Shown here: positions 44,540 to 51,971 of the stretch, in pieces
How positions within the stretch are numbered: position 1 is the stretch's first letter
How the letters are laid out: each line of letters starts with the position of its first letter
Origin: Verrucomicrobiales bacterium
GTDB taxonomy: Bacteria > Verrucomicrobiota > Verrucomicrobiia > Limisphaerales > UBA11320
Direction of reading: 5' to 3'
NCBI GenBank assembly: GCA_016793885.1
Contig: JAEUHE010000093.1
Location: 1 to 64,000 of the forward strand
DNA: 64,000 bases
Program-made: the position numbers and the translations under genes
Notes under the pieces: model-generated
Database searches by the model: none
What the model saw: only the letters and a program-made list of their open reading frames with translations
Told to the model about the DNA's origin: nothing

Positions 44540-45595
44540 TCAGCGACTCAGAATCCGCCGAGCCTCGGCGACCGAATCCTTCTCCTGACGCAGAAACAGG
44601 GTATAGGTGTTGGTCTGAGCTATCATTTGCCCGGGTCGCAGAGGTTCCAAGGGCGAAAGCAGCTCCAGTTCAACATACGCCAATGGATCAGGGTTCGTAT
44701 AGACCTCAGCACTGCAGCCCTTATCCGGATAGAAACCCTCCGGGCGGCGGGGCGAATCCACCCGTAGCGCTACGCGCTCCCCCAACCAGATGAGGGTCCC
44801 CGCATCGTTGCCGATCTTGTGCGAGGCCTTGGGATTGCGCGTCAGCCGGATCCAATCGTCATCCACCTGAAGGTCCGGGGGCGGAAGCTCCGACTGCAAA
44901 TCGTAGCCGTTACCGAAGTGGCCAGGCTTAATGCGTGGAACGAGGACTGCAACGGGCTCCCGGAGCTGGGTGATCGACCAAATGGCCACCAGGTTGGTGA
45001 GCGATGTCTCGCTGACCTTATGATACCGGGTCACCACGATCATCCTCGCCTGCAAGGGATCCAGGCGAATCTCGCGCTCCCAACGAATGCCATAATGAGC
45101 GTCCACTGCAGACTTGAGCAACACCCGATCGCCGACCACTTCCACCTCCACCGACTCCGAATCAAACCCCGGGGGAGGCGGCCAGGCTCGCGGGGTCCAC
45201 TGCGCCCATTCGGATTGAGGGGCAGGCCACACCTTGTCGCCTCCAAAATTCACCCACTCGGCCGCCAATGGATCAGGGCTTTTCCCGCGTAAGGCCGGAT
45301 TTTCCCAAAAGGGTCCACTCTCGCCCAGGAAGCGGAACTGCATGATTCGGCCGATGGAGGGCACCACCACCACCTCCGCCTGCTCATTCACCATCGAAAG
45401 GGCATTCGTCCACCCTTCATAATTGATCCGTCGGATGCTCACCGAGGACGGGGGGTTCCGATCTCCTAGAAACTCTCGATAGAGCACGGCCAATGGGATC
45501 AAAACCAAAACGGCCACGGTAAAGGAGACGAGCTGCTGCCGAAGTGACGGGAGGCCGCTCGTCCCACCCGAAACAGGAGACGGGCTGGTTGACAT
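44540..45595 (-). CDS. DUF4380-like membrane-anchored protein
   Basis: The ATG at 45595 (MSTSPSPVSG) is chosen over an upstream frame; 351 residues. One membrane span (LVSFTVAVLVLIPLAVLY) near residue 25-45 anchors it. The outer part has the pattern of DUF4380/galactose-mutarotase-like proteins: VVVVPSIGRIMQFRFLG, NPALRGKSPDP, and NFGGDKVWPAPQSEW, with a later YHKVSETSL. These are beta-sandwich proteins linked to sugars; no enzyme activity is proven. It is followed on the same strand by nothing close and preceded by aroG with a 107-base gap. Between 44246 and 44539 I see no gene, only C/G runs and a repeated GATCCAC. Confidence 0.75.
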   Translation of the reverse strand: MSTSPSPVSGGTSGLPSLRQQLVSFTVAVLVLIPLAVLYREFLGDRNPPSSVSIRRINYEGWTNALSMVNEQAEVVVVPSIGRIMQFRFLGESGPFWENPALRGKSPDPLAAEWVNFGGDKVWPAPQSEWAQWTPRAWPPPPGFDSESVEVEVVGDRVLLKSAVDAHYGIRWEREIRLDPLQARMIVVTRYHKVSETSLTNLVAIWSITQLREPVAVLVPRIKPGHFGNGYDLQSELPPPDLQVDDDWIRLTRNPKASHKIGNDAGTLIWLGERVALRVDSPRRPEGFYPDKGCSAEVYTNPDPLAYVELELLSPLEPLRPGQMIAQTNTYTLFLRQEKDSVAEARRILSR

Positions 45596-45702
45596 GGGGA
45601 GGAGCCTTGAGGTCTCCGACGGAATGTGCAATCCCAAAGAGAGCCCCAGCCCCCGCAACCGGTCGGCCCCTTCCCCGCCCCGACTCGGAGTCGGCGTGAT
45701 GG

Positions 45703-46942: not shown

Positions 46943-47794
46943 ATGCGAATCGATGCGCACCAGCACTTTTGGAACCTGAAGCAGTTTCCCCACCCCTGGA
47001 TTACCGAGAATCTCCAACCGCTGCGCCATAACTTCCTGCCCGCCGACCTCCGTCCGCTTCTGGCTCAGCATCGGCTGGACGGCTCAGTGCTCGTGCAAAC
47101 CTTTGGATCCTTGGAGGAAACCCGGTGGTTCCTTTCCCTGGCGACTCAACACGAGTTCATCCTGGGCGTGGTCGGCTGGGTTGACCTGCAGGATCCTGGC
47201 GTCGGCGACACCCTCGATGCGCTAGCGGATCACCCCAAGCTGGTCGGCATCCGGCACGTGGTCCATGATGAACCCGACCCCCAATGGCTCACGCGCCCGG
47301 AAGTGCTTCGAGGACTGGAAGAACTGGCTCGCCGCAAACTTCCCTATGACTTGCTGCTCCGCCCCCCGCACCTCCCGGCAGCCATCGAGGTGGCTCGGCG
47401 GTTTCCCACGCTTCCACTCGTGGTGGACCATATCGCCAAACCCAGGATCGCCTCCCTAGGATGGGACGATTGGGCGGAGGCCTTCGCCGCTCTGGCGCGC
47501 TTTCCTTCAGTCTACTGCAAGCTCTCCGGGATGATCACCGAAGCGTCCTGGTCCGGGTGGAAACCATCCGATCTGCACCGGTACGTGGATCATGCGCTCC
47601 AACACTTCGGCCCTGAACGGTTGATGTTTGGGAGCGACTGGCCGGTTTGCTTGCTGGCGGGAAGCTACGCGAGGGTGGTCGAAGGTCTGGAGGCGAACCT
47701 CTCCCCACTCAAGGCTCAGGATCAGGACCGCATCTGGGGAGGAACAGCTCAACAGTTCTACCGGCTTTCCACCGCAGCCGGTCAACTCTTTTAA
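46943..47794 (+). CDS. Lactonase-type amidohydrolase (COG3618)
   Basis: The ATG at 46943 begins MRIDAHQHFWNL, the family start; the frame upstream is spurious; 283 residues. It is a TIM-barrel metal hydrolase: DAHQHFW gives the HxH pair, IRHVVHDE the third histidine region, LVVDHIAKP the fourth and FGSDWPVC the aspartate. Relatives hydrolyse sugar lactones such as fucono- and rhamnono-1,4-lactone or 4-sulfomuconolactone. The substrate here is unknown; no sugar-catabolic gene is nearby. Its last four bases overlap the end of cheB on the other strand. Confidence 0.9.
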   Translation: MRIDAHQHFWNLKQFPHPWITENLQPLRHNFLPADLRPLLAQHRLDGSVLVQTFGSLEETRWFLSLATQHEFILGVVGWVDLQDPGVGDTLDALADHPKLVGIRHVVHDEPDPQWLTRPEVLRGLEELARRKLPYDLLLRPPHLPAAIEVARRFPTLPLVVDHIAKPRIASLGWDDWAEAFAALARFPSVYCKLSGMITEASWSGWKPSDLHRYVDHALQHFGPERLMFGSDWPVCLLAGSYARVVEGLEANLSPLKAQDQDRIWGGTAQQFYRLSTAAGQLF

Positions 47795-48966
47795 GCCGCG
47801 AACGCGGCCCGGGCGATGCGGGCGCGGTGCTGAATGGCTCCAGCCATGTCCTTCAGTGAAACGACGTGGTGGACCACCCCCAACTCTTGGGCAGCCGCGG
47901 GCATGCCAAAGACCACGCAGCTTTTGTCGTCCTGGGCCAGATTGATGCCACCCGCCTCCTTGATCGCCTTCATGCCCAAGGCCCCATCTTTACCCATCCC
48001 GGTCAGCAGCACACCGATCGTATGGGGACCGGCGGCAACAGCTGCGCTGCGGAACAGGACATCGACCGCCGGACGTTGATGATGCTCCTCCGGCCCACGA
48101 TGCAGTCGCACCACATACTGGGTCCTTTCCCACCGGAGCTCCATATGGAACCCTCCAGGGGCCACCAGAACCAGTCCTGGGCGCACGAGATCCCCCTGCT
48201 CTGCCTCTCGAACTTCCAGGGCACAAAGGGAGTTCAACCGCTGCGCAAAGGAACGCGAGAAGACGGCCGGGATGTGCTGAACAATGCAAATGCCAGGCAT
48301 TTCCGCCGGTAGAACCGTCAGAACATCCTTGATCGCCTCGGTGCCGCCCGTGCTCGCCCCGAGAACAATCACCTGACGGGCACTGAAGCGAGCGGTGTCT
48401 GAGGCAGCCGTAGTCCGCTTCGTCTCGATACCCACCAGATCAGGCTTCCGCCCTGAGGCAAAGCTTTCGGTGGTGGGTTGGACGAGAGCATCTCCCCGCA
48501 GTCGGGGAGCCACTGACGATCCCGAGCCTTTCGTCTGCTGGTTTCGCTTGCGAAGAACAGCAGTTAACTGGCGGAGCGAGATTTGGAGGCGTTCGTTAGA
48601 ATCCTGCTCGGAAGGCGTGGCCTGCGGAAGCCCGGGAAGAACATCGATCGCCCCCGCCTCAAAAAGCGACAGCGTATACGCCGAACCCAACGAGGCGCTG
48701 TCGGAAAGAACCACCACCGGAGCCCCCGTCGCCTGAGCCACGCGACGGAGCAGTAAAATAGCATCCACTCGCGAGGTGCCCGTTTCCAGAACCACCATGT
48801 CAGGTTTATGCGGGTTGGCAGGATCCATCAGCACGAGAGGATCCTCGGACTTTCCAACCAAGGCTGTGTCCGGGATGGAAACGAGGTTTTCTGCGACGGA
48901 CAAACGCCGAGCGGCGGGCCCAGCAACCAAGAAAACTCTTAGAGCCTGTTTAGACGGGGCTGACAT
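47791..48966 (-). CDS. cheB: CheB methylesterase with degenerate receiver domain
   Basis: The ATG at 48966 (MSAPSKQALRVFL) is preferred to a TTG two codons upstream; 391 residues. The C-terminal methylesterase is intact: S205 in GASTGG, H231 in VQHIP and D327 in GMGKDGA form the catalytic triad. The N-terminal receiver (about 8-120) keeps the fold but has lost the phospho-acceptor: the usual D is E61 (VLETGT), the acidic pair after strand one is missing (VFLVAGP), and the conserved lysine is gone (LPGLP). It removes methyl groups from chemoreceptors; phospho-control as in the usual CheB seems unlikely. It is the last gene of the CheW-MCP-Sel1-CheB set. Confidence 0.9.
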   Translation of the reverse strand: MSAPSKQALRVFLVAGPAARRLSVAENLVSIPDTALVGKSEDPLVLMDPANPHKPDMVVLETGTSRVDAILLLRRVAQATGAPVVVLSDSASLGSAYTLSLFEAGAIDVLPGLPQATPSEQDSNERLQISLRQLTAVLRKRNQQTKGSGSSVAPRLRGDALVQPTTESFASGRKPDLVGIETKRTTAASDTARFSARQVIVLGASTGGTEAIKDVLTVLPAEMPGICIVQHIPAVFSRSFAQRLNSLCALEVREAEQGDLVRPGLVLVAPGGFHMELRWERTQYVVRLHRGPEEHHQRPAVDVLFRSAAVAAGPHTIGVLLTGMGKDGALGMKAIKEAGGINLAQDDKSCVVFGMPAAAQELGVVHHVVSLKDMAGAIQHRARIARAAFAA

Positions 48967-49706: not shown

Positions 49707-51971
49707 TCAAAAATCGCGGAACGAGCTGTCCAGCGGGTTAGATTCCCCGTGAGCCGCCGCCGCCTGCCCAGGCCCAGAGGCAGCTCGCTTCGAAACCTCC
49801 GGCATGGGCAGATCATCCCCCCCACTCGGACGAGTTACCTTTGCGCCATGCGCCGCCGATGCGGAAGTCCCCGAGCTCGGTTTGAACGTGTTGAGGGATG
49901 ACCCTGAACTTGAACCGGACTTCGATGGACGTGAGCTAGGAACGGCCGCCTGGGGCCGACGCACCGGTTCGGCCGCGCGAGGGGCCGAAGCCTCAACTCC
50001 TCCGGCAACTGCTCCCGTCACCAACTGTTCGGCGGCGCGAATGGCTTCACGCTGCGAAATAGATTGTGCTTTCAACTCTTCCGAGGCGCTGGCCGTCTGC
50101 TCGGCCGCGGCGGCGGTACCCTGCACGATCTTGTCGACTCGGCTCACCGCCAAATTAACCTGCGATAATCCCGTGCTCTGCTCCTGGGTGGCATTGGCGA
50201 TCTCATTCATCACCTGATTTACCGACTGGGTCTGGGTGACGATCGCTTGGAAGCTCTTTTCAACCTCCAGAGAGCGTTCCGTGACTTCGGTCAGACTGGT
50301 GACCACCCGCTCGCTGGCCCGCACGCCATTGGTGCTCTTCTGGATGGAGTCATCGATTCGTTGAGCCGTGTCCTTCGCCGCCTGGGCGCTGCGCTGAGCC
50401 AGGCTGCGAACTTCATCGGCAACCACCGCGAAGCCTAGGCCCGCCTCCCCGGCACGAGCCGCCTCCACCGCGGCATTCAGTGCCAGAATGTTGGTCTGGA
50501 AGGCGATCTCATCAATCGTCTTGACGATCTTTGCCACTTCGCCGCCGGAGATCTCAATGTCACGAACAGCGGTTTGCATATGGCCAACCGCACCGCGGAT
50601 CTGCTCCACGGTTTGTCCCATTCCGCGAAGCTGCTCCGCCCCCTGCTGGGCCGTTTGAAGGGCTTGACCGGAGGACTCGCGGGCGCTCCGCGCATTCTCG
50701 GCTGTCCGCTTGGTCATGCTCGCTATCTCCTCAAGTGCGGCGCCGCTCTCTTCGAGCGACGCGGCTTGATCACTGGCTCCTTCGGCGAGGGAATGGCTGG
50801 CGGAGGAAATCTGAATCGCCGCGCTCGACACATCATCGGTCAGAACTCGGATCGACTGCAATTGAGCGACGATCGGTCTGGCCAGTGACCGACCGAGCCA
50901 CCAGGCCGCCAACACCAACCCCACGATGCTCGCACCAAAGACGATCAAGTTGTTGCGCAACGCGGCCAGTGCCACGGCTTGAGCTTGAGCCTCCGGGACA
51001 CGTAACAGCAAACTCCAACCCAGCCCGGGAAATCCTAAGGCTCCCTTGGAACGCACGAATCCGGAGACGAACTGTCCAGGTTTGCGCTCGTGGGTCTCGT
51101 GAACAAAGCCCTGTTCCCCAGTGATCACGCGCTTCGCCGACTCAATTCCAGCGCTCGCCAGGTTGGACTTGAGAAAGGCCTCGCTGTCATGTTGAAACGA
51201 TTTGTTTCCGCCCCTGGCCATCGGATCGTGGGTCCCTAAAACACGCCCCTTGCTATCCAACAGAGTTAGCTCCGCCTGGTCGAATCCACGCTTGGCGGCA
51301 TCCTCGTAGGCATCCATCAGTATCTCCTCCACCAAAGAGAACTTGGCCGCATTATACCAGTAGGCAATGACCTTTCCTGCCGCGTCCTTAACCGGGGCCG
51401 AAAAACCCATCACGAGCCCCTGGTTGCCACAAGCCTTCTTCACCAACTCGCTCACCGCGAGGTCCTCTACGACGGTGCCGTCCAAAAGATCGCTCTTAAG
51501 AAACTTCCCTTCGCTCACCGCCTGAAACCAACTGGCCGACTTAAAATTCTGCTCGTAAAGCCAAGTTGTCTCCAAGGGCTTCCCACCAGAATCCCGGTCG
51601 TTGACCGCCAGGACACGCCCCTCTGGATCCACCGCCACCGAGAGATCATACAGCCCATATAAGCCGACGTAACGATTCATCACCTCGGCCACCGGATTCT
51701 TGTCGGATCCAACCTTATACCAGGCGTTTTGATCCTGGATTACGGAGTTCAGACCAAACGCCTGCACATCCCCATAACGCTCGAACAGATTGCGATCGAT
51801 GTCCTCCAGGGAGGCTTGAGCCGCCGCGCGGAAGGAGTCAGCGAGACGTTCGCCGAGTGTGTGGATGGATCGGGTGCTGAGGACACCGATTACCACCAAG
51901 GGAATTGCGCCAATCAACACAAAGCTGCAGACCAGCTTGGCGGTCAGGCTCCAGGTCTTCATTCTGTTCAT
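49707..51971 (-). CDS. Methyl-accepting chemotaxis protein
   Basis: The ATG at 51971 ([17 protein letters not shown]) is chosen; 754 residues, with ATG at 51962 also possible. A first membrane span (about 14-36), a periplasmic sensor of roughly 300 residues with dCache-like features ([30 protein letters not shown]), a second span ([20 protein letters not shown]) and the cytoplasmic coiled-coil signalling domain follow. The hairpin tip [20 protein letters not shown] is standard. After residue 660 comes a long disordered Ser/Pro/Gly linker ending in SFRDF. That pentapeptide fits x-[HFYW]-x-x-[HFYW], the CheR/CheB docking motif. No HAMP domain is obvious. Ligand unknown. Confidence 0.94.

Follow-up and report, generated by a model that had tools for sequence, protein, structure and literature searches.

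CheB proteins carry the receiver landmarks D, D, D, T/S and K, followed by a catalytic Ser-His-Asp triad. The window analysed here, a 64,000-nt stretch of contig JAEUHE010000093.1 from a Verrucomicrobiales bacterium, contains a CheB gene whose receiver half has lost most of these landmarks, which raises the question of how such an enzyme could be controlled and whether it is still in use. The initial annotation had offered two answers: the glutamate found at the phospho-site might keep the enzyme always active, or its activity might be set by docking.

We examined the gene and its domains (Table 1). The CheB reading frame had been placed at 47791-48966; the assignment as CheB stands, and the frame opens two codons before the ATG, at a TTG codon. 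Pfam identifies CheB_methylest as the sole domain (3.8e-62, residues 202-380) and yields no receiver match at E<=0.001, and the NCBIfam CheB model NF001965 covers residues 9-384 with 299.7 bits, passing its cut-off of 293. The esterase triad is intact, as claimed, with all three residues present in a 75-row alignment. By its catalytic domain and triad the protein belongs to the CheB methylesterases, a name that is likewise given to receiverless proteins, and it is predicted to act as an esterase/deamidase on receptors.

Table 1. Features of the degenerate CheB gene and the neighbouring chemotaxis genes (positions in the window)
Feature	Position	Strand	Basis or remark
CheB with degenerate receiver, 393 aa	47791..48972	(-)	TTG start; ATG at 48966
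Degenerate receiver (pseudo-receiver), about residues 10-116	48625..48945	(-)	phmmer, alignment, AlphaFold2
Receiver position A17-G18	48919-48924	(-)	
Receiver position E63	48784-48786	(-)	
Receiver position S90	48703-48705	(-)	
Receiver position G114	48631-48633	(-)	
Linker, about residues 117-199	48376..48624	(-)	mostly low model confidence
Methylesterase domain, about residues 200-384	47821..48375	(-)	Pfam, phmmer, alignment
Esterase triad S207	48352-48354	(-)	75-row alignment
Esterase triad H233	48274-48276	(-)	75-row alignment
Esterase triad D329	47986-47988	(-)	75-row alignment
Sel1-repeat protein, 215 aa	49045..49692	(-)	adjoins degenerate CheB in 3/3 genomes having it
Chemoreceptor (MCP), 774 aa	49707..52031	(-)	
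Receptor CheR-type methylation motifs	50736-50765 and 50085-50114	(-)	
Receptor C-terminal pentapeptide SFRDF	49710-49724	(-)	
CheW, 179 aa	52114..52653	(-)	

The regulatory half is not that of a canonical CheB. In a phmmer search, residues 7-112 align with the receivers of solved Pectobacterium and Salmonella CheBs (6ymz and 1a2o), with E63 opposite the phosphorylated aspartate, and the 75-row alignment shows A17, G18, E63, S90 and G114 at the positions of the canonical D, D, D, S/T and K. These substitutions agree with the previously described loss of the acidic pair, the phospho-aspartate and the lysine; the S/T landmark, absent from that earlier list, is the only one kept in the window protein and is Ala in both of its orthologs. 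The phospho-site residue is Asp in 71 of the 75 CheBs, Glu, Glu and Val in the three orthologs and cut off in one sequence, where the 71/75 describes near-full-length, best-scoring search loci, with stretches under 300 aa and duplicates dropped, and is not a general CheB frequency. A G-x-S-x-V-D motif just past the phospho-site is kept in all three degenerate CheBs. Because the aspartate, the metal-binding pair and the lysine are all gone, canonical phosphorylation of this receiver should be impossible, judging from its sequence, and we infer that the protein is not phosphorylated in the cell.

The receiver fold is predicted to persist nonetheless. An AlphaFold2 model built from a four-row alignment (mean pLDDT 73.4) has strands and helices that alternate as in a receiver, a disordered linker and E63 at the end of the third strand; its receiver half is of moderate confidence, at which side-chain geometry is not to be read from the model. 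Its top PDB matches are whole CheBs, namely 6ymz (TM 0.73 by query length) and 1a2o (0.70). The predicted fold, the phmmer alignment and the lost D, DD and K together place the domain among the pseudo-receivers (PsR), which have a receiver fold and lack the phosphotransfer residues. An assembly or frame artefact is ruled out, as the receiver is in frame, has a predicted receiver fold and is degenerate in the orthologs of two other genomes as well. A different receiver variant was seen in CheB genes from other families of the order (L024, L025, L027 and L028, of genomes G032, G022, G012 and G013, respectively), which keep the phospho-aspartate, have Asn-Asp as the acidic pair and carry Thr or Leu in place of the lysine.

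We compared the locus across the five available genomes of the genus, which comprise the source genome and four congeners. Orthologs are present in two of the four (54% identity in G002 and 50-51% in G003), and both adjoin a Sel1 gene. The G002 locus has the full CheW-MCP-Sel1-CheB order, with the genes for an amidohydrolase and DAHP synthase lying beyond, and the G003 locus reads SecA-GrpE-DnaJ-RsmE, then Sel1 and CheB; in G003 (L044, 8582-9592), RsmE and Sel1-CheB are still neighbours, with neither a CheW nor a receptor gene between them. At the DD, D, S/T and K positions, the proteins read A-G-E-A-R in G002, A-G-E-S-G in the window and S-A-V-A-A in G003. We looked for a relative whose operon encodes an intact receiver, which would have pointed to recent decay, and found none: both relatives that have the operon or its Sel1-CheB part carry a degenerate receiver. 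The degeneracy is thus not a recent accident, and decay in the source genome alone is ruled out. As for the other congeners, the G004 genome (94% complete) has no cassette after SecA-GrpE-DnaJ-RsmE in a 20-kb stretch and no ortholog-level CheB match, and the RsmE contig of G001 ends soon after RsmE. A separate G001 contig encodes a Sel1 protein 58% identical to that of the window (L166, 7438-7764), which runs off the contig end, with no CheW or receptor upstream of it on the same contig.

Among the genomes searched, only this genus has the degenerate CheBs. A profile built from the three proteins and run against 320 genomes from the order and 384 from the class gives them 642-704 bits and no other match above 381 bits, and the best of the other matches that were examined are canonical. 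A single-protein scan of the source genome's contigs returned six distant loci and no ortholog. In a tree built from the esterase domain only, the three form one clade (support 100/99), and no single canonical CheB is resolved as nearest to it.

The orthologs also bear on the phosphomimic proposal, whereby Glu63 would imitate phospho-aspartate, lock the receiver in its active state and leave CheB permanently on. Glu occupies the site in the window copy and in the G002 ortholog; among aspartate-less receivers it is described as the commonest replacement, and in many response regulators it imitates the phosphorylated state (PMC12632262). However, a phosphomimetic Glu is expected to be conserved together with Lys and Ser/Thr, and the three orthologs have E, E and V, have lost the Lys in all cases and have lost the S/T in two of three, these being the residues to which a Glu of this kind is believed to bind (PMC12632262). 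Moreover, the D56E variant of E. coli CheB is a low-activity form whose catalytic rate lies below that of the wild type (PMC5809149). A permanently activated enzyme is therefore very improbable, and the always-on proposal was not borne out. Control independent of phosphorylation, which had been proposed as well, is well supported by sequence: all three orthologs share a receiver in which canonical phosphorylation appears impossible.

We next consider whether the enzyme is still used. Pairwise identities between the window and G002, the window and G003, and G002 and G003 are 41, 33 and 32% in the degenerate receiver and 76, 69 and 73% in the esterase domain attached to it. In the genus's canonical CheB (contig C42 and its counterparts), receiver identities for these pairs, in the same order, are 89, 88 and 83%, and esterase identities are 72, 68 and 68%; across the five genomes of the genus, they span 80-91% and 60-72%, respectively. 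The order of conservation is reversed in the degenerate CheB: its receiver has been released from selection and its esterase has not, and the high conservation of the esterase indicates that the enzyme is in use. A decaying duplicate CheB with no present role would fit the lost landmarks, the loss of most receiver conservation and the absence of the cassette from G004. It does not fit the esterase identities of 69-76%, at least as high as the 68-72% listed for the canonical CheB over the same genome pairs, nor a reading frame that is open and a triad that is intact in all three orthologs. A dead gene is thought unlikely on the esterase comparison, and we assign decay only a slim chance.

The CheB gene lies in a closely spaced minus-strand group with the Sel1, MCP and CheW genes, flanked by an RsmE-type RNA methyltransferase gene and a convergent amidohydrolase gene. 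A further minus-strand frame of 372 aa (44540-45658) has no Pfam match. The receptor matches the CheR site motif exactly at two places, and no Pfam domain is assigned to its N-terminal half, which lies between two hydrophobic segments (near residues 33 and 362). Its last five residues fit the xZxxZ pentapeptide motif given in PMC7698151. The receptor of a pentapeptide-dependent CheB ends in such a pentapeptide on a linker, as this one does, although only some CheBs bind the pentapeptide, according to the same source. The neighbouring receptor is a candidate substrate, and the docking control first suggested for this enzyme is possible. The substrate is not necessarily the neighbouring receptor, because G003 keeps the CheB without adjacent CheW and receptor genes.

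The initial annotation had also described the operon as lacking CheA and CheR. This holds locally and fails genome-wide, since the genome has 13 CheW-domain matches, among them five open frames of CheA size (677-801 aa), as well as seven CheR-domain and 16 receptor-domain matches. The search for further CheB copies returned six CheB-domain matches: the degenerate CheB, four CheBs with canonical receivers (contigs C20, C42, C149 and C150) and one large CheB-CheR fusion (C61). The CheA-size proteins, the CheR-domain matches and the four canonical CheBs rule out that partner enzymes are missing from the genome. On contig C42, a receptor adjoins CheR, a canonical CheB and a flagellin-like frame (labelled as flagellin from its sequence). 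The signalling tip of the window receptor is nearly identical to those on C42, C53, C51, C109 and C124 and is less like those on C149, C150, C20 and C167; the C42 and C53 receptors end in AFKDF and FRDF, respectively. The shared tip suggests that the window and C42 receptors probably sit in one array.

Taking these comparisons together, the reading that we favour, with fair though far from complete confidence and from orthologs in three genomes of one genus, is that the gene encodes a second, genus-restricted CheB, in which an unphosphorylatable pseudo-receiver is joined to a methylesterase/deamidase domain under selection. The degenerate CheB would remove methyl groups and deamidate glutamines, as at the neighbouring receptor's E-Q site, and would serve the same receptor class as the canonical, phosphorylatable CheB of contig C42. 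Its rate would depend on how much CheB is present and on the conformation of the receptor, perhaps also on docking at the pentapeptide that ends the receptor, whereas CheA activity would not govern it. In E. coli, adaptation remains precise when CheB lacks phosphorylation feedback, because CheB acts on active receptors (PMC5809149), and the isolated catalytic domain is faster than the wild type (PMC5809149). By analogy with these observations and with the D56E variant, the protein may be read as a phosphorylation-insensitive methylesterase working beside a canonical one. Since unphosphorylated full-length E. coli CheB is slow, an enzyme that has lost the site could be a weak one if its receiver is still inhibitory. 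A pseudo-receiver that continues to inhibit the esterase would mean a slow enzyme, and one that has lost this ability would mean a fast one.

The pseudo-receiver itself would be a folded spacer, though one that is unevenly conserved. At strongly conserved canonical columns, 21 of 33 residues of the trio match in beta4-alpha4-beta5, compared to 32 of 105 in the rest of the receiver (Fisher p 0.0009, from three related and so non-independent sequences). In Salmonella CheB, the beta4-alpha4-beta5 face reportedly packs against the esterase. As this is the best-kept part, the receiver may have retained its packing contact with the esterase or may interact with another protein, for example Sel1; any role of Sel1 is conjectural. 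The pattern lends itself to another explanation, in which the receiver is a docking module and the phosphorylation switch has given way to a partner (the Sel1 neighbour, CheW/CheA or the tail of the receptor) that displaces the receiver from the esterase. The predicted persistence of the fold, the surplus of canonical residues on this face and the Sel1 gene adjoining CheB in all three genomes, including the one that lacks CheW and receptor genes at this site, would all agree with it. Against this, the face may be kept only for esterase packing, and gene adjacency across three related genomes is weak evidence for a docking partner. We regard such a partner-driven switch as possible but rather unlikely. 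An equally tentative extension places two CheBs in a flagellar-class array, of which one is subject to CheA feedback and the other is isolated from it, with the pseudo-receiver re-used as a docking domain for Sel1. If a two-CheB array is true, demethylation in the cell is partly feedback-controlled and partly constant.

CheBs with degenerate or absent receivers have been described before, and the present clade is a further case. FrzG, which is the Frz-system CheB in Myxococcus xanthus and its relatives, has a largely degenerate receiver in Cystobacteraceae and Myxococcaceae and a non-degenerate one in Anaeromyxobacteraceae (PMC4546325). FrzG belongs to a complete Frz system that includes a CheA-type kinase and a CheR of its own, whereas only CheW, a receptor and Sel1 are adjacent here; with these neighbours in place of a Frz cluster (FrzCD, FrzE and FrzF) and a clade limited to one genus, the protein does not appear to be a FrzG ortholog, FrzG having been compared by its description. 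The F3-class auxiliary CheB of Campylobacterota is likewise free of control by receiver phosphorylation, but its receiver is absent (PMC9321776), while the one here is present, degenerate and predicted to be folded. Canonical CheBs (E. coli/Salmonella 1a2o and those on C42, C20, C149 and C150) share the domain order, fold and esterase triad, and differ in a receiver that can be phosphorylated by canonical chemistry. The aspartate-less, atypical response regulators share a receiver fold without phosphotransfer residues and commonly have Glu at the Asp position; the available part of the review on them does not mention CheB (PMC12632262). In the open-licence literature, we found no paper on this CheW-MCP-Sel1-CheB operon, and topic searches for Sel1 with chemotaxis and for phosphorylation-independent or pseudo-receiver CheB returned none that we recognised as relevant.

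The purpose of CheB phosphorylation has been described as a question long left open, because adaptation is precise without it, and in E. coli the phosphorylation feedback reduces cell-to-cell variation (PMC5809149). A genome that holds both a canonical CheB and one that appears to be naturally phosphorylation-dead would offer a natural experiment on this purpose. The modes of control of pseudo-receivers are, in turn, described as largely unknown (PMC12632262), and the degenerate CheB would give pseudo-receivers a catalytic output domain.
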